Source: Natranaerobius thermophilus JW/NM-WN-LF (GTDB lineage: Bacteria; Bacillota; Natranaerobiia; Natranaerobiales; Natranaerobiaceae). From it: 64,000 nucleotides of DNA. The DNA lies in the NCBI RefSeq assembly GCF_000020005.1, contig NC_010718.1:202001-266000 (forward strand). Reading direction: 5' to 3'. A program made the position numbers and the translations under genes. Below are positions 39,113-51,945 of the stretch, in pieces (position 1 is the first letter of the stretch; each line of letters begins with the position of its first letter). The notes below the pieces were generated by a model. The model made no database searches, had not been told where the DNA came from, and worked only from the letters and a program-made list of their open reading frames with translations.

Positions 39113-39916
39113 TTGATTCTTATAATGGATAAGAATAAACTTGTCAAATATGTGAAATATTCAGCTATAATTTGTTTGTTAATATTAACGGCGATAATTG
39201 GATTTAAATTTCTGAACTCCAGAACAGAAGTTCAACATGGTAAGGAAATTAATATATCTACTGATGACTATACCGAACCCTTTGAAACTATCGAAAATGT
39301 AGAATTACCTTTACAGGGATTAGTGATTGGAGTGGATCCCGGCCATGGAAGCTATGATCCGGGTTTTTTTACTGAGGGAGTGAGAGAAAGTGATATTGTC
39401 CTGGATATTTCATTAAAATTAAGAAGGCTCTTAGAACAAGGCGGAGCAGAAGTTGTTATGACTAGGGAAACTGATGAATTAATGGTGGAAAATGATAATG
39501 GAACCCAAAGAGAAGAACTTAGAAAAAGGTCTAAATTATTTTTAAACCAGGATGTAGATTTATATGTAAGTATTCATGGTAATACTGTAGCTAGTCCTAT
39601 TTGGAGGGGAGCGCAAACTTTTTTCTATCCAGAAGAAACAGAAGAAGCAGAAGAAAACGATAATAAATGTAAAAATTTTAATTTGGCTATTTGCATTCAA
39701 GATGAACTGCAGCGTGTATTAGCCAATACAGACAGACCTGTACGAATAGGTAACTATTACATTTTGCGAGAATTATCAAAACCGGGAGTCTTGGTAGAAG
39801 TTGGATTCTTATCTAACCCCCACGAGAGGAAATTACTCCAGGATGAAGAATACCAGGAGTTGATTGCCTGGTCCATATATCTCGGTATTATTAAATATCA
39901 TCATACAGATATGTAA
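39113..39916 (+). CDS. cwlD: N-acetylmuramoyl-L-alanine amidase, CwlD-like
   Basis: A 267-residue amidase_3 protein. An N-terminal signal anchor (about residues 15-32) precedes a zinc-dependent domain with DPGHGSYDPGF (His), the GVRESDIVLDISL glutamate, SIHGN (His) and LVEVGFLSNPHE (catalytic Glu). CwlD removes peptide side chains from muramic acid during muramic-lactam formation in spore cortex, and its position after rpsI matches Bacillus. TTG 39113 has proper spacing from GGGGG; ATG 39125 is too far. This suggests a spore former. Confidence 0.88.
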   Translation: MILIMDKNKLVKYVKYSAIICLLILTAIIGFKFLNSRTEVQHGKEINISTDDYTEPFETIENVELPLQGLVIGVDPGHGSYDPGFFTEGVRESDIVLDISLKLRRLLEQGGAEVVMTRETDELMVENDNGTQREELRKRSKLFLNQDVDLYVSIHGNTVASPIWRGAQTFFYPEETEEAEENDNKCKNFNLAICIQDELQRVLANTDRPVRIGNYYILRELSKPGVLVEVGFLSNPHERKLLQDEEYQELIAWSIYLGIIKYHHTDM

Positions 39917-39989: not shown

Positions 39990-41297
39990 TTAAAAATCTT
40001 TTAATATATCCTCAAGAGTTGGTATTCCCATTTCCTGAAGTTCATATCTAATTCTGACAGCTGGTCTTTCTATATTTGCAACCCTGCGAAGATCAATAGG
40101 AGTTCCTAAGATTACAGTATCACATTCAGTTTTATTGATAGTATCCTCAAGTTCTTTCATTTGTTCGCGTCCGTAACCCATAGCAGGTAATAAATTACCT
40201 AGGTGAGTATAGGTTTCAAATGTCTCTTTTATACTACCAACAGCGAAAGGTCGTGGATCAACAATTTCTTTAGCTCCGAATTTTTGAGCAGCTAGGGTAC
40301 CGGCTCCGTAAGTCATTTCTCCGTGGGTCAAAGTAGGTCCATCTTCAACGACAAGTACTCGCTTATCTTTAATTTGATCAATATCACTAGGGAATACAGG
40401 GGATACTCCTTCAACTACTGTGGCATTGGGTGCTAATTTTTCAATATTATGTCTTACTTCCTGTACTCCTTCATTGGAGGCAGAATCTATTTTGTTAACA
40501 ATAGCTACATCAGCCATCCTTAGATTTGATTCTCCGGGATAATATTTTAGTTCATGCCCGGGTCTATGAGGATCTACCAATACCATGTGTAAATCTGGCT
40601 TGTAAAATGGTATATCGTTATTTCCACCATCCCAAATGATTACGTCAGCTTCTTTTTCAGCTTCTTTTAATATTTTTTCGTAATCAACGCCTGCATAAAC
40701 AATTATTCCACGATCGATGTGAGGTTCATATTCTTCTCTCTCTTCTATAGTGCATTCGTGTTTGTCTAGATCATCATAATCAGCAAAGCGCTGGCAAGTT
40801 TGCTTGGCCAGGTCTCCATAGGGCATTGGATGTCTGATTACCACCACTTGTTTACCTTTTTCTCTCAATAGATCACAGACTCTGCGAGTAGTTTGACTTT
40901 TGCCAATTCCAGTTCTGACAGCACAAATAGAAATTACGGGTTTTTCCGATTCTAGCATTGTAGTATTAGGTCCCATTAATTTGAAATCGGCACCCGCTGA
41001 ATTAACCTCTGAAGCTTTGTTCATTACGTATTCATGAGGTACATCACTATAGGAGAATACTACCTCATCAATATTGTGCTTAGATATTAGATTGGTTAGT
41101 TCTTCTTCGGCATAGATATCAATTCCATTTGGATATTTGTCTCCTGCTAATTCAGGGGGATATTTTCTGCCTTCTATATTTGGAATTTGAGTTGCTGTCA
41201 TGGCTACTACTTCGTAATCATCATTGTCGCGAAAATACACATTGTAATTGTGGAAATCTCGTCCAGCTGCTCCCATGATCAAAACTTTTTTAGTCAA
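39990..41297 (-). CDS. Cyclic 2,3-diphosphoglycerate synthetase-like P-loop protein
   Basis: A 435-residue protein. An N-terminal Rossmann-like domain begins TKKVLIMGAAGRDFHNYN, and a P-loop NTPase domain has Walker A AVRTGIGKSQTTR (about residues 126-138) and WDGGNNDIPFYKPDL. The overall pattern matches the family of Methanothermus cyclic 2,3-diphosphoglycerate synthetase, which closes 2,3-DPG with ATP. In methanogens cDPG is a thermoprotectant; bacterial homologues are mostly untested. TTG start follows AAAGGAGGA with 8-nt spacing. Encoded alone, opposite to cwlD. Confidence 0.8.
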   Translation of the reverse strand: MTKKVLIMGAAGRDFHNYNVYFRDNDDYEVVAMTATQIPNIEGRKYPPELAGDKYPNGIDIYAEEELTNLISKHNIDEVVFSYSDVPHEYVMNKASEVNSAGADFKLMGPNTTMLESEKPVISICAVRTGIGKSQTTRRVCDLLREKGKQVVVIRHPMPYGDLAKQTCQRFADYDDLDKHECTIEEREEYEPHIDRGIIVYAGVDYEKILKEAEKEADVIIWDGGNNDIPFYKPDLHMVLVDPHRPGHELKYYPGESNLRMADVAIVNKIDSASNEGVQEVRHNIEKLAPNATVVEGVSPVFPSDIDQIKDKRVLVVEDGPTLTHGEMTYGAGTLAAQKFGAKEIVDPRPFAVGSIKETFETYTHLGNLLPAMGYGREQMKELEDTINKTECDTVILGTPIDLRRVANIERPAVRIRYELQEMGIPTLEDILKDF

Positions 41298-41673
41298 AAC
41301 ACATCCTCCTTTTTTTTTAGGATTCCATAGTGTTAATAAAAATACTCCTATACTTATATTATATCTTAGAAAAAAATTTCCTGCTAAATAACCAATAAAA
41401 GTTAAAAAATTCTCAAAATAATTAATAATTAAAAATAAGAACTATTTCATCTAATGACAATAGTTTACTGATATCCCCAACAGGAATTAGTGTCTTCGAT
41501 ATAGAACTAATTAAATCGGAGTTCTATAGCAAAGTGCAAATTTTTTCACTATGATTTTTGATTTGTATATTTCAAATTTTTGAATCATCATTAAATTAAT
41601 ATTTTAAAACAGTGATTTAAAAAACAAATTAAGGAGCATTCCTGTAATGAATTAAAATGAAGATTGATAAAAA
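41298..41673. other. AT-rich intergenic region with promoter-like and inverted-repeat sequences
   Basis: No gene is visible here. On the minus strand TATAAT (41363-41358) is a likely -10 for the cDPG synthetase gene, with only a weak -35. A perfect 9-bp inverted repeat, TATAGAACT/AGTTCTATA (41500-41508 and 41520-41528), has no T-run. The left edge of the IS110-type element probably lies near 41640-41674 but cannot be placed. Confidence 0.5.
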
Positions 41674-41749
41674 AAGTACCTCCTGCTAATATACGAGGTG
41701 TCGCTACACCTAGAAATGACGACCCTTAATTTAAGCAGAGGAGGTACTT
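41674..41749 (+). promoter_or_regulatory. Ribosome-binding-site hairpin in the IS110 leader
   Basis: AAGTACCTCC plus TGCT (41674-41687) pairs with AGCA, a two-base bulge, and GGAGGTACTT (41734-41749), covering the transposase ribosome binding site. A perfect inner hairpin AGGTGT/ACACCT (41696-41701 and 41706-41711) with loop CGCT lies within. The ATG is at 41753. Confidence 0.75.
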
Positions 41750-41752
41750 ACC

Positions 41753-43036
41753 ATGAAGTATACCCAAAATGAGAGAATTAATCAAGTAAAAGAGTCAAGT
41801 TTGATTATCGGAGTAGACATTGCAAAAGCAGAACACGTAGCAAGAGCTCAGGATTTTCGGGGTGTGGAGTTTTCGAAACCAATCACCTTTGAAAACACCA
41901 GGAAAGGTTTTAAGAAGTTTTTAAGTTGGCTAGAGGTAATCAAACAAGAACAAGCAAAAGAAGAAGTCTTAGTAGGTATGGAACCTACTGGCCAATACTG
42001 GCTGACTCTAGCTCAATTTTTAAAGCAAACAGGTATCCAAACTATTTTAGTAAATCCAAATCACGTAAAAAAGAGCAAAGAACTAGACGACAACTCACCA
42101 ACTAAAAATGATATTAAAGATGCAAAAGTGATAGCACAGTTAGTAAAAGATGGCCGTTACTCAGTACCCAATATCCCTACAGGAATATATGCAGAACTAC
42201 GGAATGGGATGAATTTGCGAGATCGGCTAACAGATGACTTAAGGCGTGTAAAAGGTAGGATAGACAATTGGTTAGATCGTTACTTCCCAGAATTCAGCAC
42301 AGTGTTTAAGAACTGGGATGGAAAAGCAGCACTATTAACCCTAAAAAATTTCCCTTTACCAAAAGAAATATTAGGTCATAGTGAAGAAGAGATAGTAAGT
42401 TGCTGGAAACGAGAAGTGAATCGAGCAGTAGGTAAAAAAAGAGCAAGAAAGCTGAAAGAAGCAGCCAAGAATAGTACTGGTATAACAGAAGGCGAAATAA
42501 TGGCAAGACAAGAATTGAAAACCCTATTGTCGCAGTATGACGCTTTAATAGAAGAGTTAGAACAAGTACTTGTTCAGATAGAAAATATTTTAAAAGAAAT
42601 TCCAGGAGCAGAAGAAATGATGAGTATTCCTGGAGTAGGGATGGTAACAGTGGCAGGATTTTTGGCTGAAGTGGGTGATCTTTCTAATTATCAACATCCA
42701 AATCAAATTAAGAAGCTGGCAGGCTTAAATCTAAAAGAGAACAGTTCAGGTAAGCACAAAGGTGAAACCAAGATAACCAAACGAGGTCGACCTCGTTTGA
42801 GAGGACTCTTATATCGCTGCGTGATTCCATTAGTAGCCAAGAATCCTGAATTTAAGTTATTACACGATTATTATACCACAAGGCCAGAAAATCCCTTAAA
42901 AAAGAAACAATCGCTTGTAGCATTAGCGTGTAGATTGATCAGAGTTTTGTTTGCCCTAGGTACCAAAAAGACACCTTATAATGGCAGGATGATGTTAAAG
43001 AACAGTTCATTAAATTTATTGCAGGATGCTGCATAA
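41753..43036 (+). CDS. IS110-family DEDD transposase
   Basis: A 427-residue transposase. The N-terminal RuvC-like DEDD domain shows GVDIAKAEHVA (D), GMEPTGQYW (E) and KNDIKDAKVIAQL (D, D). The C-terminal Transposase_20 domain shows SIPGVGMVTVAGFLAEVGDL and LAGLNLKENSSGKHKGETKI with the conserved catalytic serine region. The frame is intact, so the element may be active. The ribosome binding site is buried in a leader hairpin. Confidence 0.92.
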   Translation: MKYTQNERINQVKESSLIIGVDIAKAEHVARAQDFRGVEFSKPITFENTRKGFKKFLSWLEVIKQEQAKEEVLVGMEPTGQYWLTLAQFLKQTGIQTILVNPNHVKKSKELDDNSPTKNDIKDAKVIAQLVKDGRYSVPNIPTGIYAELRNGMNLRDRLTDDLRRVKGRIDNWLDRYFPEFSTVFKNWDGKAALLTLKNFPLPKEILGHSEEEIVSCWKREVNRAVGKKRARKLKEAAKNSTGITEGEIMARQELKTLLSQYDALIEELEQVLVQIENILKEIPGAEEMMSIPGVGMVTVAGFLAEVGDLSNYQHPNQIKKLAGLNLKENSSGKHKGETKITKRGRPRLRGLLYRCVIPLVAKNPEFKLLHDYYTTRPENPLKKKQSLVALACRLIRVLFALGTKKTPYNGRMMLKNSSLNLLQDAA

Positions 43037-43049
43037 GCAGCCAAATTGG

Positions 43050-43275
43050 AGTCTTAAGAATTTATACTACATCCACAAAAGGAGCACGGAGAAGCCAGTC
43101 ATAATAATCCATTCGGGCATTGACCCTGCTAAGGAGCAAAACTGGCCTCCACCCTTGGCTAGGTAGAACGAAGGAATTTATAAGGGCCATAATGGACCCA
43201 GTGAGATATGGGAGGTAAAACCACCAAGGAACAAGTGGAGATCCATTAAATGTGCCACCATATTTTGCCAGGAAC
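43050..43275 (+). ncRNA. Candidate IS110/IS1111-type guide (bridge) RNA region
   Basis: This gene-free stretch after the transposase holds several G-rich and complementary pieces (for example CTGGCCTCCACCC near 43141 and GGGAGGTAAAACCACC near 43210) suggesting folded RNA. IS1111-like elements carry their target/donor-pairing RNA in this position. Assignment rests on position and composition only. Confidence 0.4.
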
Positions 43276-43306
43276 AACCCTTATTTAAAGGCACTCCTGT
43301 TTTACA

Positions 43307-43329
43307 AAAATTTCATTATATGAAATTTT
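43307..43329. repeat. 10-bp inverted repeat upstream of arginase
   Basis: AAAATTTCAT and ATGAAATTTT are perfect inverted arms with a 3-nt loop (TAT). No T-run follows. It may be an operator for the arginase operon or part of the insertion sequence border. Confidence 0.45.
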
Positions 43330-43423
43330 CTTCCTAGTCCTTAAAATGGATGGTAGTGAAATCTTGAGAATGAGTGAGTATATTGAAGAAATAATTAATT
43401 TATAGAGGGAGGATGATCTACCA

Positions 43424-44317
43424 ATGAATACATCAATAATTGGAGTTCCTATGGATTTAGGAGCCAACCGTAGAGGAGTAGATATGGGTCCAAGTGCAAT
43501 CAGGTATGCTGATTTAAGAGCAAAACTAGAGGAAATTGGAATTGATGCCAAAGATAAAGGTAATATTTCTGTTCCTCTGCCTGAAATAGACAGCATGGAA
43601 GCAGAGGAAATTAAGTATCCCAAACAAATTGAAGCTGTTACAAATTCCCTAGCACTGCAAGTTTCAAAAGAAGCAAGCCAAAATAGAATTCCTATTATAC
43701 TTGGCGGTGATCATAGTATAGCAATTGGTAGTATTGCAGGTATGAAACAAGCCGTTGGAGAGCTGGGTGTATTATGGTTTGATGCTCATGCTGATTTAAA
43801 TACATTTGAAACAAGTCCTTCAGGGAATATTCATGGCATGCCCTTAGCCTTTTCTTTAGGTTATGGAAACAGCAACTTGGTTAACTGTCTGGAAAAAGGT
43901 CAGAAAATAAAACCTGAAAATACAGTATTAATTGGGACTAGATCTATAGATGAACCGGAAAAAGAACTAATTGAAAAATCTGGTGTGACTGTATTTACCA
44001 TGTACGATTTGGATAAAATGGGAATGAACCGTGTAATGGAGGAAGCATTGTCAATTGTCACTTCCAATACTGATGGAGTTCACGTGAGTTTAGACATGGA
44101 TGCACTTGACCCGGTAGAAGCGCCAGGAGTAGGTACCCCTGTCCGAGGTGGAATTAATTACCGGGAGGTGCATTTAGCCATGGAGCTGATAGCAGAGGCA
44201 CAATGTATAAACTCCATGGAAGTAGTAGAAGTTAATCCTATTTTAGACAGTGTCAACCGGACCGGTGATTTGGCTGTAGAGTTAGTAGCTTCGGCTTTAG
44301 GTGAACGTGTATTATAA
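43424..44317 (+). CDS. rocF: Arginase
   Basis: A 297-residue ureohydrolase. The N-terminal GVPMDLGANRRGVDMGPSAI is typical of Bacillus-type arginase rather than agmatinase. The Mn-binding motifs are GGDHSIAIG, DAHADLNT and SLDMDALDP. It hydrolyses arginine to ornithine and urea. It is followed 38 bases later by the AmmeMemoRadiSam genes on the same strand, which suggests co-transcription. Agmatinase or a related amidinohydrolase remains possible. Confidence 0.88.
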   Translation: MNTSIIGVPMDLGANRRGVDMGPSAIRYADLRAKLEEIGIDAKDKGNISVPLPEIDSMEAEEIKYPKQIEAVTNSLALQVSKEASQNRIPIILGGDHSIAIGSIAGMKQAVGELGVLWFDAHADLNTFETSPSGNIHGMPLAFSLGYGNSNLVNCLEKGQKIKPENTVLIGTRSIDEPEKELIEKSGVTVFTMYDLDKMGMNRVMEEALSIVTSNTDGVHVSLDMDALDPVEAPGVGTPVRGGINYREVHLAMELIAEAQCINSMEVVEVNPILDSVNRTGDLAVELVASALGERVL

Positions 44318-44355
44318 AGTTGTGTTTATTAACTAATTTTGTAGGAGGGAATTAT

Positions 44356-45162
44356 ATGTTAAAGTGGGCAATTTTTTCTCCTCACCCTCCCCTATTAATT
44401 CCTGAAATAGGTAAACAAATGCTAAGTCAAGTCGAAAAGACTAAAAATAGTTTAGAACAAGTTTTTGCTAAGGTTCATAATGTAGATACTATTATTGTAA
44501 TAACCCCCCACGGTTTTGCAAGTGAAAATGCCATAACATGCTATCAGACCGATATGTTGAACGGGGCTTTAACAGATTTCAGTGGGGGGTGCCCTGTCAT
44601 TGAGTTGACTGTAGATCAAGACTTAAATGAAATGATTAACCAAACTGCTGATAACCAAAATATAGACGTAAATTGGATCACTAAAAATAGCTTAAAATTC
44701 AGTGAAGAACTACTAGATCATGGTAGCTATGTACCTTTGTATTACGCTCTTAAAAACTTGACTTCAACCCCAAGAATAGTAGTTATAAATCCTGGATTTG
44801 TAACCATTGATGCACTGTGGCAGTTTGGTGAAGCTTTACAGTCCCAATTGGCAGATACTAAAAAAGATATCGGTTTAATTATCAGCGGGGATCTTTCCCA
44901 TCGATTAACTCAGGGAGCTCCTGCTGGCTACCATCCAGAAGCGTATAAATTCGATCAGGAAATAAAAGATATAATCGAGCAAGGCCCATTATCACGATTG
45001 AAAAAGCTTTCTTCACAACTGCTTAGTACAGCAGGAGAATGTGGCTATCGTCCTTTGATCTTGGGTAGCGGGATGTTAGATAATCTAAATTTAAGCGACA
45101 AACAAGTTTTATCTTATGAAGGCCCCTTTGGGGTAGGATATTTGGTTGCTAGATTATTTTAA
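44356..45162 (+). CDS. amrB: AmmeMemoRadiSam system protein B (Memo/LigB-like)
   Basis: A 268-residue protein of the class III extradiol-dioxygenase-like fold. It starts MLKWAIFSPHPPLLIPEIGK and contains VITPHG and SGDLSHRLTQGAP blocks with potential metal-binding histidines. ATG 44356 follows GTAGGAGGGA; an upstream start at 44320 is rejected. The family is defined by its linkage to AMMECR1-type and radical SAM genes, both of which follow. Chemistry is not established. Confidence 0.85.
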   Translation: MLKWAIFSPHPPLLIPEIGKQMLSQVEKTKNSLEQVFAKVHNVDTIIVITPHGFASENAITCYQTDMLNGALTDFSGGCPVIELTVDQDLNEMINQTADNQNIDVNWITKNSLKFSEELLDHGSYVPLYYALKNLTSTPRIVVINPGFVTIDALWQFGEALQSQLADTKKDIGLIISGDLSHRLTQGAPAGYHPEAYKFDQEIKDIIEQGPLSRLKKLSSQLLSTAGECGYRPLILGSGMLDNLNLSDKQVLSYEGPFGVGYLVARLF

Positions 45163-45182
45163 AACGAGGAGGTATGAAGCCA

Positions 45183-45725
45183 GTGAGTTCCAATAAAGAA
45201 AGCCAATTGGCCCTTTATCTTGCCAGGGAAGGGTTAAAACATTATCTAAGGTATGAAAAATATTTGGAACCTCCAGAGGAGATGCCTCCCCTCTTTTATA
45301 CAAAAAGAGGCACTTTCGTGTCACTAAAAGAAAAAGATGATAATCTCAGGGGATGTATTGGTACTTTAGAAGCTACACAAAACAACTTAGCCCAGGAGAT
45401 AATTCAAAATGCTGTAAGTGCCGGTGTAAGGGATCCTAGATTTCCCCCTGTAAAATTAACAGAATTGGATGATATAAAGGTTTCCGTTGACATAATCTCT
45501 CCCTTGGAAAAAGTTTCAGGGTTAGATCAGCTAGATCCTAGTAAATATGGTTTGGTTGTTGAAAAAGGTTATCGAAGGGGTGTGCTATTACCGGATCTTG
45601 AGGGAATAAATACTCCTAAAGAACAATTAGCCATCTCAGCCCAAAAAGCTGGACTATCACCAAGTGATTCAAATTTAACACTTTACAGGTTTGAGGTGAC
45701 TAGATTTCATGAAACTGCCTCATAA
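45183..45725 (+). CDS. amrA: AmmeMemoRadiSam system protein A (AMMECR1 domain)
   Basis: A 180-residue AMMECR1-domain protein with the diagnostic LRGCIGTLEA motif (about residues 56-65) and DPRFPPVKLTELDDIKVSVD. The GTG at 45183 has a 10-nt spacing from AGGAGG; ATG 45174 would be only one base away from it. Its end overlaps the radical SAM gene by 17 bases. The biochemical role of this domain is unknown. Confidence 0.85.
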   Translation: MSSNKESQLALYLAREGLKHYLRYEKYLEPPEEMPPLFYTKRGTFVSLKEKDDNLRGCIGTLEATQNNLAQEIIQNAVSAGVRDPRFPPVKLTELDDIKVSVDIISPLEKVSGLDQLDPSKYGLVVEKGYRRGVLLPDLEGINTPKEQLAISAQKAGLSPSDSNLTLYRFEVTRFHETAS

Positions 45726-46785
45726 TCTGTTTCGAGATAAAAAGGGTGAATTTGTAAATTGTCATCTTTGTTTTCGTCGGTGCTTGTTAAAAGAAGGTGA
45801 GTTAGGATTTTGTGGCAATCGCAAAGCTGTAAAAAACCTTCAGGGGGAGCTACAGCCTGTCTTTAGAACAGTTAAGCGTATTGAAGCTCTAAATATAGAT
45901 CCGATCGAAAAGAAACCCTTATATCATTTCTATCCTGGAAAAAATGTAATTTCCCTTGGATTAAGAGGATGCAATATGAAATGCTTTTATTGTCAAAATT
46001 ACCAGTTGTCTCAGGATAAAAACTTTGATTTTAAAGAGGTCGGAGAGATTAAAAAAGACTTGGAGATTGAGAAAGAGGAAAATCCTCCCCTAGTAGAACA
46101 GACAAAATCCCTGTTAAAAGAATCCGGAGAAAAACAGAGCAGTGGTGCCATTGGAGTAGCATTTACTTATTCCGAACCAATAACTTGGTTCGAATTTCTT
46201 TATCCTGTTGCTAAAAACACAAAAAAAGAAGGATTTGTAAATGTATTAGTAAGTAATGGTATGGTGACAGAAGAAGTGAGATCAGAACTGTCCCCTCTCC
46301 TTGATGGTGCTAATATTGATGTTAAATCATTTTCTGAAGAAAATTATCGCCATTTAGGAGGTTCTTTAACAGCTGTAAAATCAACTGTAGAAGACCTACA
46401 TGCTAGTGGTATTCACGTCGAATTGACATATTTAATTGTACCCGAATTTAATGACAAAGACCAAGAAATAAAAAGTTTTTTAAAGTGGGTTTCTGAAGTT
46501 AGCCCTGATATTCCGGTACACTTTAGTAGATATTTTCCTAGTTATCAAGCTCAAGCATCTCCTACTCCCGTAGAAAAAATGATTGAAGTTTACAATATAG
46601 CTAAGCAATATATAAATTATGTGTATTTAGGAAACTTGGGTCAGGAAAAGTATCAATCTACTTATTGTCCTGAATGTGAAGGGGTTGTAATCCGGCGAAG
46701 CGTTTTTGCTGTTTCTAATAAACTGAAAGGCGACGAATGTCCTTATTGTCAGTATAAAATTGCTGGATGTTTTATTTACTATTAA
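45709..46785 (+). CDS. amrS: AmmeMemoRadiSam system radical SAM enzyme
   Basis: A 358-residue radical SAM protein. N-terminal cysteines 18, 21, 25 and 35 (CHLCFRRC and GFCGNR) precede the Fe-S/SAM motif CNMKCFYC (Cys88, Cys92, Cys95). A GAIGVAFTYSEPITWFEF segment and a C-terminal zinc-ribbon-like pair (CPEC and CPYC) follow. This layout is the one of the AmmeMemoRadiSam radical SAM family and resembles pyruvate-formate-lyase-activating enzymes. Translationally coupled to amrA by overlap. Confidence 0.88.
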   Translation: MKLPHNLFRDKKGEFVNCHLCFRRCLLKEGELGFCGNRKAVKNLQGELQPVFRTVKRIEALNIDPIEKKPLYHFYPGKNVISLGLRGCNMKCFYCQNYQLSQDKNFDFKEVGEIKKDLEIEKEENPPLVEQTKSLLKESGEKQSSGAIGVAFTYSEPITWFEFLYPVAKNTKKEGFVNVLVSNGMVTEEVRSELSPLLDGANIDVKSFSEENYRHLGGSLTAVKSTVEDLHASGIHVELTYLIVPEFNDKDQEIKSFLKWVSEVSPDIPVHFSRYFPSYQAQASPTPVEKMIEVYNIAKQYINYVYLGNLGQEKYQSTYCPECEGVVIRRSVFAVSNKLKGDECPYCQYKIAGCFIYY

Positions 46786-46941: not shown

Positions 46942-47760
46942 ATGTGGGAGGGGCTTACAAATTTATTTGCTCAAATTACCTTTATAGATATTTTTGATAT
47001 TTCCCTAGTTGCTTTCTTATTTTATAGATTAACTCTATTAATCAGAGGAACTAGGGCTATTCAACTGTTAAAAGGTCTATTTGTATTATTAATAGCTATG
47101 GTTCTCAGTGATCGAATGCAACTTACTACCATCAATTTTTTATTAGAACAAGCCATGACAGTAGGTATTGTTGCCATACCTATCGTATTTCAGCCTGAAT
47201 TGAGAAGAGCTTTAGAACAATTAGGACGAGGAAAGTTCTTTGGAGACGGTTTGTTTTCAGGAGATGAAGACAGAACTCAGGCTATCAAAGAACTTAAAAA
47301 AGCTGCTAAAGTATTACAGACCCGAAAAATTGGAGCTTTAATAGTGATTGAAAGAAAAACAGGACTTTCAGATATTACAGAAACAGGTATACAAATAAAT
47401 GGCAAAATCAGTGCAGAGCTTATAATCAATGTCTTTATGCCATTAAGTCCTTTGCACGATGGTGCCCTGGTGCTTAGAGAAAATCATGTAAAAGCCGCTG
47501 GTTGTTATTTGCCTTTAACAGAAAAACCAGACTTAAGTAAAGAGTTAGGAACCCGACATAGAGCAGCTATAGGTATCACAGAGAATTCTGATGCCATTAG
47601 TTTGATCATAAGTGAAGAAACGGGCGCTATTTCCCTGGCGGAAGGTGGAAAATTAACGCGTTATTTAGATGAAGACGAACTGGAAAGTTTATTGATCAAG
47701 TTGTGGGGAGGTCATGAACACCAATCTAAGAGCTTTTGGCAATGGAGGTTAGGAAATTGA
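46942..47760 (+). CDS. cdaA: Diadenylate cyclase CdaA
   Basis: A 272-residue membrane enzyme making c-di-AMP from two ATP. Three N-terminal hydrophobic segments (about residues 12-32, 40-57 and 62-85) precede the DAC domain with the DGA motif in PLHDGALV (173-175) and the RHR motif in GTRHRAAIG (205-207). c-di-AMP controls potassium and osmolyte homeostasis and wall integrity. It is followed by cdaR and glmM, the conserved Firmicutes trio. Confidence 0.96.
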   Translation: MWEGLTNLFAQITFIDIFDISLVAFLFYRLTLLIRGTRAIQLLKGLFVLLIAMVLSDRMQLTTINFLLEQAMTVGIVAIPIVFQPELRRALEQLGRGKFFGDGLFSGDEDRTQAIKELKKAAKVLQTRKIGALIVIERKTGLSDITETGIQINGKISAELIINVFMPLSPLHDGALVLRENHVKAAGCYLPLTEKPDLSKELGTRHRAAIGITENSDAISLIISEETGAISLAEGGKLTRYLDEDELESLLIKLWGGHEHQSKSFWQWRLGN

Positions 47761-49004
47761 AACAATTATTTTCACAGAACGGGCTTTTGAAGTTATTATC
47801 AATTGCTCTAGCTTTATTGTTATGGATGTTTGTAAGCACCGATGCCGATGATATGGCCACCAGGGAAATTAGTAGAAGATATGATGGTATCCAGCCTTCA
47901 GTTCGCAATCAGGATCCTGATTTGATCTTAGTAGGTGATCCCCAGACAGTATCAGCGTCATTGAGAGGTACTCGCACCATGTTGAACCGAGTTGAAAAAG
48001 ATGAACTGGTGTTTTATGTTGATTTGGAGGGTTTGGAAGCGGGTACGCACCGAGTCCCGGTATCTTCCAGTGTGCCTCAATTTGATGTAACTGATATTCA
48101 ACCATCGGAAGTTGAAATTACTCTTGATGAACGAATAGAGGAAACCTTTGCAGTCGACCATGATGTCATTGGAACACCTGATGAAGGGTTGCAAGCACTG
48201 GAGCCTGAAATTAATCCTTCAACTGTAACTATTTCTGGAGCCAAAACATATATTGAACAGGTTGAAAGGGTTGTGGCACGAGTTGATATTACAGGAACTG
48301 TAGACTACTTGGAAAAGGGCATTGTAGTTGATATTTATGATGAAAACGGTGAAATCATGGAAGAACTAGAAGTTAGTCCAGGTATGGTGGAAGTTAAAAT
48401 CCCCATGAACTATCCTGAAAAAGAAGTCCCTGTAGAAGTCGATATTGAGGATAATTTACCGGAATTCTATTTGGAATCAGTGGAAATTTCTCCAGAACAA
48501 GTTGAAGTTGGTGGATGGGAAAGTGTTATTAATGAACTTGAATATATTAAAACAGAGACGATTGGTTTAGATCGTTTCCTAGAGGAAGAAACAGTGGTAG
48601 CTTCACTGGAACGTCCCGAAGGTATAAAGGAAATTTCAGATCAAAATGTGATAGTAGAGGGACAAATTTCACAAACACAAGAGGAAAGCTTTGAAATCCC
48701 TGTTGATTTACCAGAGGAATTAGCGAATGAACTAGCAAATAGCCAATGGGAAATTGAGCCCGAAATTATTACAGTTTCTGTGGCTGGTGAACCAGAAGAT
48801 ATGACCGCTCTAGATAAAAATGATATTGAAGTCTATTTAACAATGGACGATGTGCCAGAAGAGGATCTAGAGACAGTTGAGGAATCAGAGGCAGTTGAGG
48901 AACTAGTAGAAGAATTGGATGTAGAAGTGCAGTTACAAAACGATAATTTAAGACTAGTAAAAGTAGATCCGTTAAAAGTCAACCTAATTAAGGGTGAAGA
49001 ATAA
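47757..49004 (+). CDS. cdaR: CdaR, YbbR-domain regulator of CdaA
   Basis: A 415-residue protein with one N-terminal membrane anchor (about residues 10-26) and an extracytoplasmic part of repeated YbbR domains (recognised by recurring PSEVEITLDE-like and PSTVTISGAKTYIEQV segments, four in all). TTG 47757 overlaps the cdaA stop (TTGA) and lies 8 nt after GGAGG. CdaR binds and modulates CdaA. The protein is very acidic (Glu/Asp-rich). Confidence 0.9.
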   Translation: MKQLFSQNGLLKLLSIALALLLWMFVSTDADDMATREISRRYDGIQPSVRNQDPDLILVGDPQTVSASLRGTRTMLNRVEKDELVFYVDLEGLEAGTHRVPVSSSVPQFDVTDIQPSEVEITLDERIEETFAVDHDVIGTPDEGLQALEPEINPSTVTISGAKTYIEQVERVVARVDITGTVDYLEKGIVVDIYDENGEIMEELEVSPGMVEVKIPMNYPEKEVPVEVDIEDNLPEFYLESVEISPEQVEVGGWESVINELEYIKTETIGLDRFLEEETVVASLERPEGIKEISDQNVIVEGQISQTQEESFEIPVDLPEELANELANSQWEIEPEIITVSVAGEPEDMTALDKNDIEVYLTMDDVPEEDLETVEESEAVEELVEELDVEVQLQNDNLRLVKVDPLKVNLIKGEE

Positions 49005-49101
49005 AATATAATGACAAATATTTTTTGGTACAAAAAATCTATGGGTTTTAACTGATTTTTAACTTGTGAGAACTGATTTACTACGAAAGGGAGTGAAACT
49101 G

Positions 49102-50430
49102 ATGCCAAAATTGTTTGGTACAGATGGAGTAAGAGGAGTAGCTAATGAAGACTTAACCCCAGAGCTTTGCTTAAAAATTGGTAGAGCAGCAGGGGAATAT
49201 TTAAAATCATACGGAGACACTGTCTTGGTTGGAAGAGACACTAGATTATCAGGCACTATGTTGGAAGCTGCCCTTTCAGCAGGTTTAGCTTCAGTAGGTT
49301 TAAAAGTAGAGCGCCTTGGGATAGTTACAACTCCTGCAGTTGCATTTTTAGCTAGTAGAGAAGATGTAGCCGGAGGTGCTATGATTTCGGCTTCTCATAA
49401 CCCTGTTCCTGATAACGGAGTTAAGTTTTTTGATAATAAGGGATATAAGCTCGCTGAAAGTCACGAAGAGCAGATTGAAAATTATTTAGAAAAGGAATTA
49501 TCACGACCTACAGGTACTGATATAGGAAAAGTTTTACCCGAAAACAACAAACTAATTGAAAATTATATCCAAGAATTAATTGACAAATATCCACTGGATT
49601 TGAGTAATTATAAAATTGTCCTGGATTGTGCTTACGGAGCCACTTATCAGATAGCACCACGTCTATTTAAAAAACTTGGTGCCGAGATAATACCTTTACA
49701 TGCAGAAAATAGAGGAGAAAAAATCAATGTGGAATGTGGCTCTACTAATCCAGAACTGACTTCTCGAACAGTAGTGGAAGAAGGAGCAGATTTAGGGTTC
49801 TCCTTCGATGGTGACGGTGATAGAATTATTGCCCTAGATGAAGAGGGGAACCAGGTCAATGGTGACAAAATCATGGCTATTCTTGCCAAAGATATGAAAA
49901 GTCGTGGAGAATTAAAGAATGATAAATTAATTGCCACTGTTATGAGTAATCTTGGCTTAAAATTAGCTTTAAAAGAATTAGGTATAGCATTGGAAGAGAC
50001 CAAGGTTGGTGACCGCAATGTCCTTAACCGAATGAGGGAGCAGGACTGTGTTTTAGGTGGAGAACAATCAGGACATATAATTAATCTCCAAGATAACACA
50101 ACCGGTGATGGTGTCTTGACTGGCCTGAAATTGATGAAGGTCTTAATTGACACTGGTCAATCTTTAAAGCAATTGGCTTCAATAATGGAAGAACTTCCTC
50201 AATTACTAGTAAATGTAAAAGTTTCAAACAAGGATTCTGCTATTAATTCACAGAAAGTTCAAGAAGAAAAATCTAAAGTGGAAAAGCAACTAGGCAGTAA
50301 AGGCCGAGTACTAATTCGTCCTTCAGGAACAGAACCAGTGATTAGAGTCATGGTTGAAGGTGAAAACAGAGAGACTTTACATGAGGTGGCTAATCACTTA
50401 ACTCAGGTGATTAAAAAAGCAGCTGAATAG
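49102..50430 (+). CDS. glmM: Phosphoglucosamine mutase
   Basis: A 442-residue enzyme converting glucosamine-6-phosphate to glucosamine-1-phosphate for UDP-GlcNAc synthesis. It starts MPKLFGTDGVRG; the phosphorylated serine is Ser98 in MISASHNP, the magnesium loop is SFDGDGDR, and the phosphate-binding loop is RPSGTEPVIRV. ATG 49102 is preferred over a frame start at 49066. In other Firmicutes GlmM also binds and inhibits CdaA. Confidence 0.96.
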   Translation: MPKLFGTDGVRGVANEDLTPELCLKIGRAAGEYLKSYGDTVLVGRDTRLSGTMLEAALSAGLASVGLKVERLGIVTTPAVAFLASREDVAGGAMISASHNPVPDNGVKFFDNKGYKLAESHEEQIENYLEKELSRPTGTDIGKVLPENNKLIENYIQELIDKYPLDLSNYKIVLDCAYGATYQIAPRLFKKLGAEIIPLHAENRGEKINVECGSTNPELTSRTVVEEGADLGFSFDGDGDRIIALDEEGNQVNGDKIMAILAKDMKSRGELKNDKLIATVMSNLGLKLALKELGIALEETKVGDRNVLNRMREQDCVLGGEQSGHIINLQDNTTGDGVLTGLKLMKVLIDTGQSLKQLASIMEELPQLLVNVKVSNKDSAINSQKVQEEKSKVEKQLGSKGRVLIRPSGTEPVIRVMVEGENRETLHEVANHLTQVIKKAAE

Positions 50431-50507: not shown

Positions 50508-51569
50508 TCAAGCGGCATTATTACTATGTAAAAGCCAAAAAGTCCTATTACGATTAGAGTAATTAATCCCAGCAACTTGAGCAGGAGTAGACTGATTCAA
50601 AACATTGCTTGTCCTAACAAAGTTAAAAGCAAACACAAATACCGCAATCAACTTGTTGGCTGACTGGAAAGAAGCAAATCCTCTGCGTTGCTTAACCCAG
50701 CTTTTGAAAATCTGAAAAAAAGATTCAATTAAGTTATTAGAGATATCATCTTGAAAAGACTCGACTCTGATGTGATTAGAGTTTGGAAACAGAACTTTAA
50801 TTGGAGCATTGTAAGCCCAGTATCTATCTGTAACGATACTATGAGGCTGTCCAAAATGTTTCTTAGCATAGTTCAGCACTTTAAAAGCAGCCTGGCTATC
50901 TCTGTAAGGAGATAGATGAAATGCAAGCACAAATCTAGTTTCAGCATCAATAACAGTCCAGGCGTAGAATCTTTTGCCTTTAATTTTAATTACAGTTTCG
51001 TCGACATGCCACTCATCAGAAGAGTCAAGATCTATTGGCTTTAGATATCTAGAGATATAAAGAAACAGAGGAGCAAACTTTTTAGTCCAGTCAGCAATAG
51101 TAACATGAGATACTTTAATTCCTTCACAATCAATAAGGAACTGTGAGACACCTCTAGTAGAGCTACCATTGATAAAGTACAGGTAAAGAGCTCGAATAAC
51201 AGTATGAAGAGAATGTCTCATGTTAGAGAAGTCTACTTTGCCGTCAATATCAAGTTGCGAAGGTTCAGGAATACTTTGAGGTTTAGGGACATAGAAAGAA
51301 TGATTACAGCTTTTGTCCCAACACCTCAAATTAGAATAAAATTCATAGTCGTGATGTAAAAATGTAGCTTTACCGCATTTAGGGCAAGAGGGATATTTAC
51401 GAGGTTTATTAGGACCTCTTTTATCCCCGCCTTTAGAAAGTGTCTTAGGTGCAAACTGACTAAAACATTCTTGACATTGATACTTTTGATGACCATGATT
51501 ATCAAAACCAAACCTATAAAACTTGTCAGAGCAGTTATTATTGCATCTAGGGCATACAACTTTAGTCAT
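50508..51569 (-). CDS. IS6-type DDE transposase with N-terminal zinc ribbons
   Basis: A 353-residue transposase. The N-terminus has several CxxC pairs (CPRCNNNC, CQEC, CPKC and a CWDKSC) in two zinc-ribbon-like modules. The DDE core includes EWHVDETVIKIKGKRFYAW (first D), SIVTDRYWAYN (second D) and NNLIESFFQIFKSWVKQRRG (E) as in IS6/IS240-like enzymes. The reading frame is intact. Ribosome binding site GGAG is buried in a long leader hairpin. Confidence 0.87.
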   Translation of the reverse strand: MTKVVCPRCNNNCSDKFYRFGFDNHGHQKYQCQECFSQFAPKTLSKGGDKRGPNKPRKYPSCPKCGKATFLHHDYEFYSNLRCWDKSCNHSFYVPKPQSIPEPSQLDIDGKVDFSNMRHSLHTVIRALYLYFINGSSTRGVSQFLIDCEGIKVSHVTIADWTKKFAPLFLYISRYLKPIDLDSSDEWHVDETVIKIKGKRFYAWTVIDAETRFVLAFHLSPYRDSQAAFKVLNYAKKHFGQPHSIVTDRYWAYNAPIKVLFPNSNHIRVESFQDDISNNLIESFFQIFKSWVKQRRGFASFQSANKLIAVFVFAFNFVRTSNVLNQSTPAQVAGINYSNRNRTFWLLHSNNAA

Positions 51570-51716: not shown

Positions 51717-51775
51717 ACTTGGGTCAGTAAAAACAACAAAAGTTTTTATTTTTAATGTTCTTTACTGACTTAAAA

Positions 51776-51945
51776 GCGCCAGGGCACTTTTCTCTTGCCA
51801 TATTCGATATAAAGAGAAAAGTGTTGACGAGGTGGAGGTTAATCGAGTAATCGGCGGATGCCTCCCGGTGCCATCACCACCGTTAAAGGCACATAATAAA
51901 ACCGGGAAGCGATTCCCGGGACAAAAAGTGCCGGGTGATGAAAAC
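51776..51945 (+). ncRNA. glmS ribozyme (GlcN6P-activated self-cleaving riboswitch)
   Basis: The RNA starts at GCGCCAGGGC, with the expected cleavage site between A51775 and G51776. The core elements TTGACGAGGTGGAGGTTA, ATCGGCGGATGCCTCCC, the P4-type hairpin CCGGGAAGCGATTCCCGG and GTGCCGGGTGATG follow in the usual order. It ends about 50 bases before glmS. Glucosamine-6-phosphate acts as a cofactor for cleavage, after which the downstream mRNA is degraded, giving feedback on GlmS. Confidence 0.95.

Follow-up and report, generated by a model that had tools for sequence, protein, structure and literature searches.

What does the AmmeMemoRadiSam trio of proteins (Memo, AMMECR1 and a radical S-adenosylmethionine (SAM) enzyme; hereafter AMRS) act upon? 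Few uncharacterised enzyme sets are as widespread in anaerobes and archaea, and for two of the three proteins there are human relatives that are linked to disease but have no agreed function. The question is raised by the chromosome of Natranaerobius thermophilus JW/NM-WN-LF where, in the window analysed here (a stretch of 64,000 nt, positions 202,001 to 266,000 of contig NC_010718.1), AMRS lies immediately downstream of an arginase gene. We suggest, with a probability of roughly 0.55, that this arginase-AMRS operon is the reduced survivor of an anaerobic arginine/ornithine island of the Bacillota, in which AMRS works at the ornithine node and its radical SAM enzyme serves as an activase or modifier. 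That AMRS is recurrently linked, at operon distance, to the genes of arginase, ornithine racemase, ornithine carbamoyltransferase and carbamate kinase confines the search for the substrate to that node, and identifies lineages in which knocking out the trio should have a visible phenotype and alter a metabolite. No published description of the arginase-AMRS link or of the function of the bacterial trio was found in the literature searched, which did not include two key papers, and this is not proof of absence. 'Memo-Ammecr1 systems' are named in passing in an eLife 2020 paper, and a review of archaeal dark matter lists AMMECR1 as a top unknown.

All four genes are on the + strand, arranged head to tail, and every open reading frame (ORF) is intact. 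An arginase of the RocF type (43424-44317, 297 aa; arginine to ornithine and urea) is followed after 38 nt by a protein of Memo/LigB fold (AmmeMemoRadiSam protein B, 44356-45162), after a further 11 nt by an AMMECR1-domain protein (AmmeMemoRadiSam protein A, 45174-45725), and then by the AmmeMemoRadiSam radical SAM enzyme (45709-46785), which overlaps the preceding gene by 17 nt. This is the arrangement described in the original prediction, i.e. gaps of about 40 nt or less and one overlap of 17 bases. The start of Memo is the ATG at 44356, preceded by TAGGAGGG. There are no + strand terminator-like sites in the intergenic gaps of the four-gene run.

One of the outcomes that the original prediction had named as fatal to it, an arginase linkage unique to this genome, is ruled out by recurrence of the linkage in 21 genomes of seven families. 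Two rounds of survey were made within the same phylum (Bacillota), of 150 and then of 399 genomes. In the first, arginase and AMRS lay within 15 kb of each other in 7 of the 14 genomes holding both. The second found a true arginase in 64 genomes, for most of which the neighbourhood was read, and in 21 of the 64 it is directly upstream of Memo or of a Memo-AMMECR1 fusion (families f1, f22, f40, f80, f92, f93 and f108). The 21 include two genomes where only Memo-AMMECR1 was found. Arginase genomes were partly sampled via arginase itself, and the adjacency fraction is therefore given for genomes with both genes only; arginase is directly upstream of the set in 19 of the 34 that have both arginase and the radical SAM gene, the latter being cut by a contig end in one of the 19. 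The linkage expected by chance is roughly 0.4% per genome, and what is observed is far above this; tail probabilities derived from that figure ignore relatedness and serve for orientation only. Arginase adjacency changes state at least four times on a tree of the radical SAM proteins and five times on one of the arginases, which, the trees being quick ones, should be read as several separate gains or losses and not as a precise count. The gene calls of the survey are simple ORFs, for which a single gap may shift by a start codon. In one locus (L266, genome G177) arginase is followed by a Memo-AMMECR1 fusion and no AMRS radical SAM gene was found in the genome; this is possibly a radical-SAM-free variant.

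The linkage is to arginase and not to ureohydrolases in general. Agmatinase-like paralogues were found within 15 kb of AMRS in 0 of the 75 AMRS genomes that carry them (the match coordinates behind this figure, and behind the comparisons with and without AMRS below, were transcribed by hand), and a general agmatinase/ureohydrolase linkage was ruled out on these grounds.

Unsupervised clustering of the genes neighbouring AMRS returned cwlD, rplM, rpsI, argC, argJ, argD, argB, an M29-type peptidase, cdaA, a racemase resembling ornithine racemase (Orr) and arginase. The Orr-like racemase scores about 430 bits against NF040742, which is under the strict cut-off (480), although no other family matches nearly as well; OraE, Or-4, OrtB, ArcC and ArgF were identified by NCBIfam, and the identities of ArgJ, the ArgC-type dehydrogenase, the amidase and the M29 peptidase were also checked by family. 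In locus L309 one strand carries rplM-rpsI-cwlD-ord-ortA-ortB-oraE-or4-orr-arginase-[Memo-AMMECR1]-radical SAM, where ord and ortA are named by position and sequence start and the rest by homology (ornithine pathway after PMC8803604). Here arginase and AMRS end exactly an operon of oxidative ornithine degradation (ord-ortAB-oraSE-or4-orr, of Stickland type), whereas in the window there are only arginase and AMRS, the ornithine genes lying elsewhere on the chromosome. AMRS is flanked by orr and arcC in L152 and L157, so that different ornithine genes fill the slots before and after the trio according to lineage.

These genes are packed closely against the trio. The gap from arginase to Memo is about 10 nt (mostly -20 to +25 nt, many overlapping), and that from orr to Memo has a median of 3 nt; on the other side the radical SAM gene is separated from argF by -13, 13 and 85 nt, and from arcC by 4-39 nt. 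The neighbours that belong to the general gene order are farther away, at 250 nt (cwlD), 335 nt (cdaA), 797 nt (argC) and 879 nt (rpsI), although cwlD comes within 60 nt of AMRS in seven loci despite its median of 250 nt. Genes of an operon are tightly packed in any case, so that the spacing indicates membership of the operon and not a reaction. The commonest tight downstream partner of the radical SAM gene is the M29-type peptidase, within 60 nt in eight loci and sometimes overlapping. It stands directly after the radical SAM gene in L091, L100-L102, L107, L115, L120 and L124, and is a second close partner of the trio to recur.

The same neighbours could be explained by gene-order hitchhiking, in which arginase, orr, the arginine genes and AMRS are adjacent by inheritance within an old Bacillota block (rplM-rpsI-cwlD...cdaA-cdaR-glmM-glmS). 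The block is indeed an old home of arginine and ornithine genes, so proximity alone proves little: argJ is a neighbour of rpsI at the same frequency whether AMRS is present (23/86) or absent (5/23), orr is close to cdaA or rpsI in 5 of 9 genomes without AMRS as against 6 of 23 with it, arginase follows rpsI/cwlD in the absence of AMRS in f86 and f103 and precedes cdaA in its absence in f81, f88, f98 and f136, and in G052, of the same order as N. thermophilus, the triad is in place without arginase. Against this, it is only the ornithine-catabolic genes and the M29 peptidase family that are found at operon distance, the gene-order neighbours being hundreds of nucleotides off, and the adjacency of arginase and AMRS recurs on both trees. 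Moreover the tandem of f92 (L271) is located away from the block, with no rplM-rpsI/cwlD/cdaA block genes within about 7 kb, and arginase and AMRS thus travel as a unit. On balance we consider hitchhiking a somewhat improbable explanation of the arginase linkage. It does account for argCJBD, which we rejected as a functional partner; in 43 of 90 genomes they are found in the vicinity of AMRS, but at loose spacing, and argJ is beside rpsI no less often where AMRS is missing.

Linkage to arginase had been offered as a hint to the substrate, be it ornithine, urea, a polyamine or a modified guanidino group. Ornithine is the best fitting of these, because the racemase, carbamoyltransferase, carbamate kinase and fermentation genes are coupled to AMRS as tightly as arginase is, while the agmatinase-like paralogues, which form urea and putrescine, show no such linkage in any of the 75 genomes. 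From this pattern of gene linkage we infer that in these anaerobes AMRS serves the ornithine node, and does not act on urea or polyamines.

The capacity of N. thermophilus itself is consistent with such a role. The arginase scores 329 bits against TIGR01229 (cut-off 228), its Mn-site motifs GGDHS, DAHAD, SLDMD and VEVNP are all present, and the solved structures nearest to it are arginases (e.g. 6nbk, E 4e-101). By these features it is a canonical RocF and should yield ornithine and urea. No orr, oraSE or ortAB genes are found in the part of the window examined (about 30-56 kb), and the genome has an OraE at C2:1238118 (1379 bits) and an Orr-like gene at C2:1273096, so that ornithine can probably be fermented. 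No argJ was found in the genome, and arginase is therefore a likely source of ornithine.

The three AMRS families are contiguous and each scores above its curated cut-off, which places the genes in the AmmeMemoRadiSam system. Memo scores 116 bits against PF02900 (cut-off 26) and passes TIGR04336 by a margin of only 0.1 bit (26.1 against 26); the AMMECR1 protein scores 165 bits against PF01871 and 140 bits against TIGR04335 (cut-off 99), and the radical SAM enzyme 247 bits against TIGR04337 (cut-off 220). As in other members of the system the three components are adjacent, with the invariant cysteines, the LRGCIG motif and the Memo metal residues kept. The locus is unlike most relatives in that Memo and AMMECR1 are separate genes and not fused, and in that the score of Memo is only just sufficient for its model. 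The radical SAM enzyme is likewise divergent, on a branch common to the same order and the Halanaerobiales.

The structure model of Memo has a predicted local distance difference test (pLDDT) score of 95.9, and its nearest folds are TK2203 (5hee), extradiol dioxygenases and human MEMO1 (7kq8). H10, H52 and C229 (counted from the ATG at 44356) are invariant among 32 aligned Memo proteins, forming a His-His-Cys metal site in place of the His-His-Glu of LigB. By fold and order they correspond to H49, H81 and C244 of MEMO1, where two histidines and one cysteine bind iron or copper (eLife 2024, PMC11081632). In the AMMECR1 protein the LRGCIG motif (residues 58-63) is about 99% conserved, and DPRF is likewise kept nearly without exception. 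The human proteins have the same folds as their counterparts here, although identity between Memo and MEMO1 over the structural match is about 13-15%. We know of no radical SAM partner gene for MEMO1 or AMMECR1 in animals.

The radical SAM enzyme contains three groups of cysteines: the CxxxCxxC motif (C88/C92/C95), an N-terminal set (C18/C21/C25/C35) and a C-terminal set (C320/C323/C344/C347). The original prediction had taken the extra N-terminal cysteines and the C-terminal zinc ribbon as suggesting a protein or peptide substrate. As a special pointer they are not supported, because all 11 cysteines are invariant in each of the 13 set-associated AMRS radical SAM proteins aligned; the CxxCxxxC...C and the four-cysteine ribbon are family-wide. 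The genome has two further stand-alone TIGR04337 radical SAM genes, at C2:955356 (L063) and C2:2255396 (L064), one of which starts with a twin-arginine-like leader (MERRKFLSKTGKILGL). Both score better than the copy in the window, and were rejected as the 'real' AMRS enzyme since there is no AMMECR1 or Memo alongside them and the genome has a single AMMECR1 gene.

The solved fold nearest to the radical SAM core is that of pyruvate formate-lyase activating enzyme (3cb8; template modelling (TM) score 0.74 by target). The protein falls far short of the activase models (52.2 bits against 231.75 for TIGR02493, and 64 against 250 for YjjW), it has the extra N- and C-terminal cysteine sets, and there is no glycyl radical enzyme gene near the AMRS locus. 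The fold also bears on a different kind of explanation, i.e. that the locus is a cluster for a ribosomally synthesized and post-translationally modified peptide (RiPP), in which a single peptide would be the substrate both of arginase, turning its arginine residues into ornithine, and of the radical SAM enzyme. The structure of the activating enzyme was solved with a peptide substrate, and peptide arginases are known to co-occur with other RiPP maturases (PMC10028609). But the arginase here is the canonical enzyme of free arginine, its partners recur as an ornithine-fermentation operon, and apart from the four genes the + strand of the operon has no ORF that reaches 80 aa. A RiPP-like cluster is highly improbable.

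What, then, might AMRS do at the ornithine node? Arginase would supply ornithine, to be fermented by way of the OraE and Orr-like gene products encoded elsewhere in the genome. The best candidate targets of the radical SAM enzyme would be the invariant LRGCIG loop of AMMECR1 and the metal centre of Memo. The activated Memo-AMMECR1 unit could then carry out a metal-dependent, oxygen-independent step on ornithine, on a side product or on an enzyme of the pathway. We propose with modest confidence that AMRS is an oxygen-independent accessory of the ornithine node, in which the radical SAM enzyme activates or modifies Memo-AMMECR1. That AMRS is a radical-SAM-dependent system at this node and that human MEMO1 and AMMECR1 descend from enzymes of such chemistry is distinctly doubtful, and we put it forward as a speculation.

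A number of observations weigh against placing AMRS at the ornithine node. Part of the wider linkage, that to the arginine-biosynthesis genes, cwlD and cdaA, is an old gene order around rplM-rpsI that persists in the absence of AMRS, and orr and arginase also occupy this chromosomal island where AMRS is missing from the genome. Close to N. thermophilus the linkage is loose or missing, the arginase-Memo gap being 193 nt in the nearest relative (L065) and arginase being absent from the AMRS locus L071 of the same order. Many genomes have AMRS but neither arginase nor orr, and among 80 named loci spanning many phyla none from outside the Bacillota has arginase, orr, argF or arcC beside AMRS. The ornithine association is therefore a feature of the Bacillota, AMRS cannot be an obligate part of the pathway, and given the inherited gene order as well the case for a dedicated arginine/ornithine enzyme falls short. 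Lastly, we infer the role of the radical SAM enzyme as activase or modifier of its own partners less firmly, from conservation of fold and motifs. The association may reveal the substrate area of AMRS, or only where the trio is most needed.

The breadth of distribution is what would be expected if AMRS were a general housekeeping system of anaerobes, for example in modification of nucleotide bases or isoprenoids, and its place in ornithine operons a regulatory convenience. Burroughs et al. are said to have proposed such modifications for Memo clades in 2019. The AMRS radical SAM protein is above cut-off in 285 of the 399 genomes of the phylum, and occurs without a fixed neighbour in archaea, Bacteroidota, Zixibacteria and others; its gene has no obvious partner at many loci, archaeal ones among them. 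AMMECR1 is also one of the families that most strongly mark anaerobes (mSystems 2026, PMC13386939). Coupling to orr, arginase, argF and arcC at operon distance is not predicted by a housekeeping function, which we hold to be rather unlikely. Our preferred reading remains that of a reduced arginine/ornithine island with AMRS at the ornithine node, and the original interpretation as a whole is partly supported.

The locus lies within a longer conserved block. The interval proposed originally, 43424-46785, is correct for the four genes and too short for the block, since cdaA (46942-47760, +, TIGR00159) begins only 156 nt after the radical SAM gene. It is followed by cdaR/ybbR (47736-49004, +, PF07949) and glmM (49096-50430, +, TIGR01455). 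AMRS stands directly before cdaA-cdaR-glmM in about a dozen Bacillota loci, including those of the sister genomes L065 and L071 and also L172, L180, L198 and L203.

Upstream lie rplM-rpsI, an amidase, a gene on the opposite strand and a copy of IS110. The first of these after rplM-rpsI is a cwlD-like N-acetylmuramoyl-L-alanine amidase (39113-39916, +), whose relative at L065:11594-12424 matches PF01520 with 156 bits; an amidase of this cluster is near AMRS in 50 of 81 loci and is the usual upstream neighbour in the phylum. The gene at 39990-41297 (- strand) encodes a protein of 435 aa ('MGAAGRDFHN') that has no Pfam or NCBIfam match, and which we take to be cyclic-2,3-diphosphoglycerate-synthetase-like. 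Close relatives flank AMRS-arcC/argF clusters in L152, L157, L165 and L169, which makes it a probable member of the same arginine/ornithine island.

The IS110 element (41630-43412, +; transposase NF033542, 243 bits) is inserted between these two genes and arginase, with boundaries set from the identical copies L315 and L316. Its right end falls within the Shine-Dalgarno site of arginase, just before the ATG. There are five full copies and one partial copy of the element in the genome, 98-100% identical (L315, L316, L317, L319 and L320). The sequence flanking them on the left is ..AAGGAG, and that of each of the five right ends observed is GAGGGAGG, mostly with a start codon 5-12 nt beyond, so that the downstream gene regains a ribosome-binding site; IS110 seems to target Shine-Dalgarno sites for insertion. 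At the other end of the block a transposase-like ORF (50508-51569, -) lies between glmM and a glmS ribozyme (RF00234, 112 bits) at 51764-51942, the latter preceding glmS.

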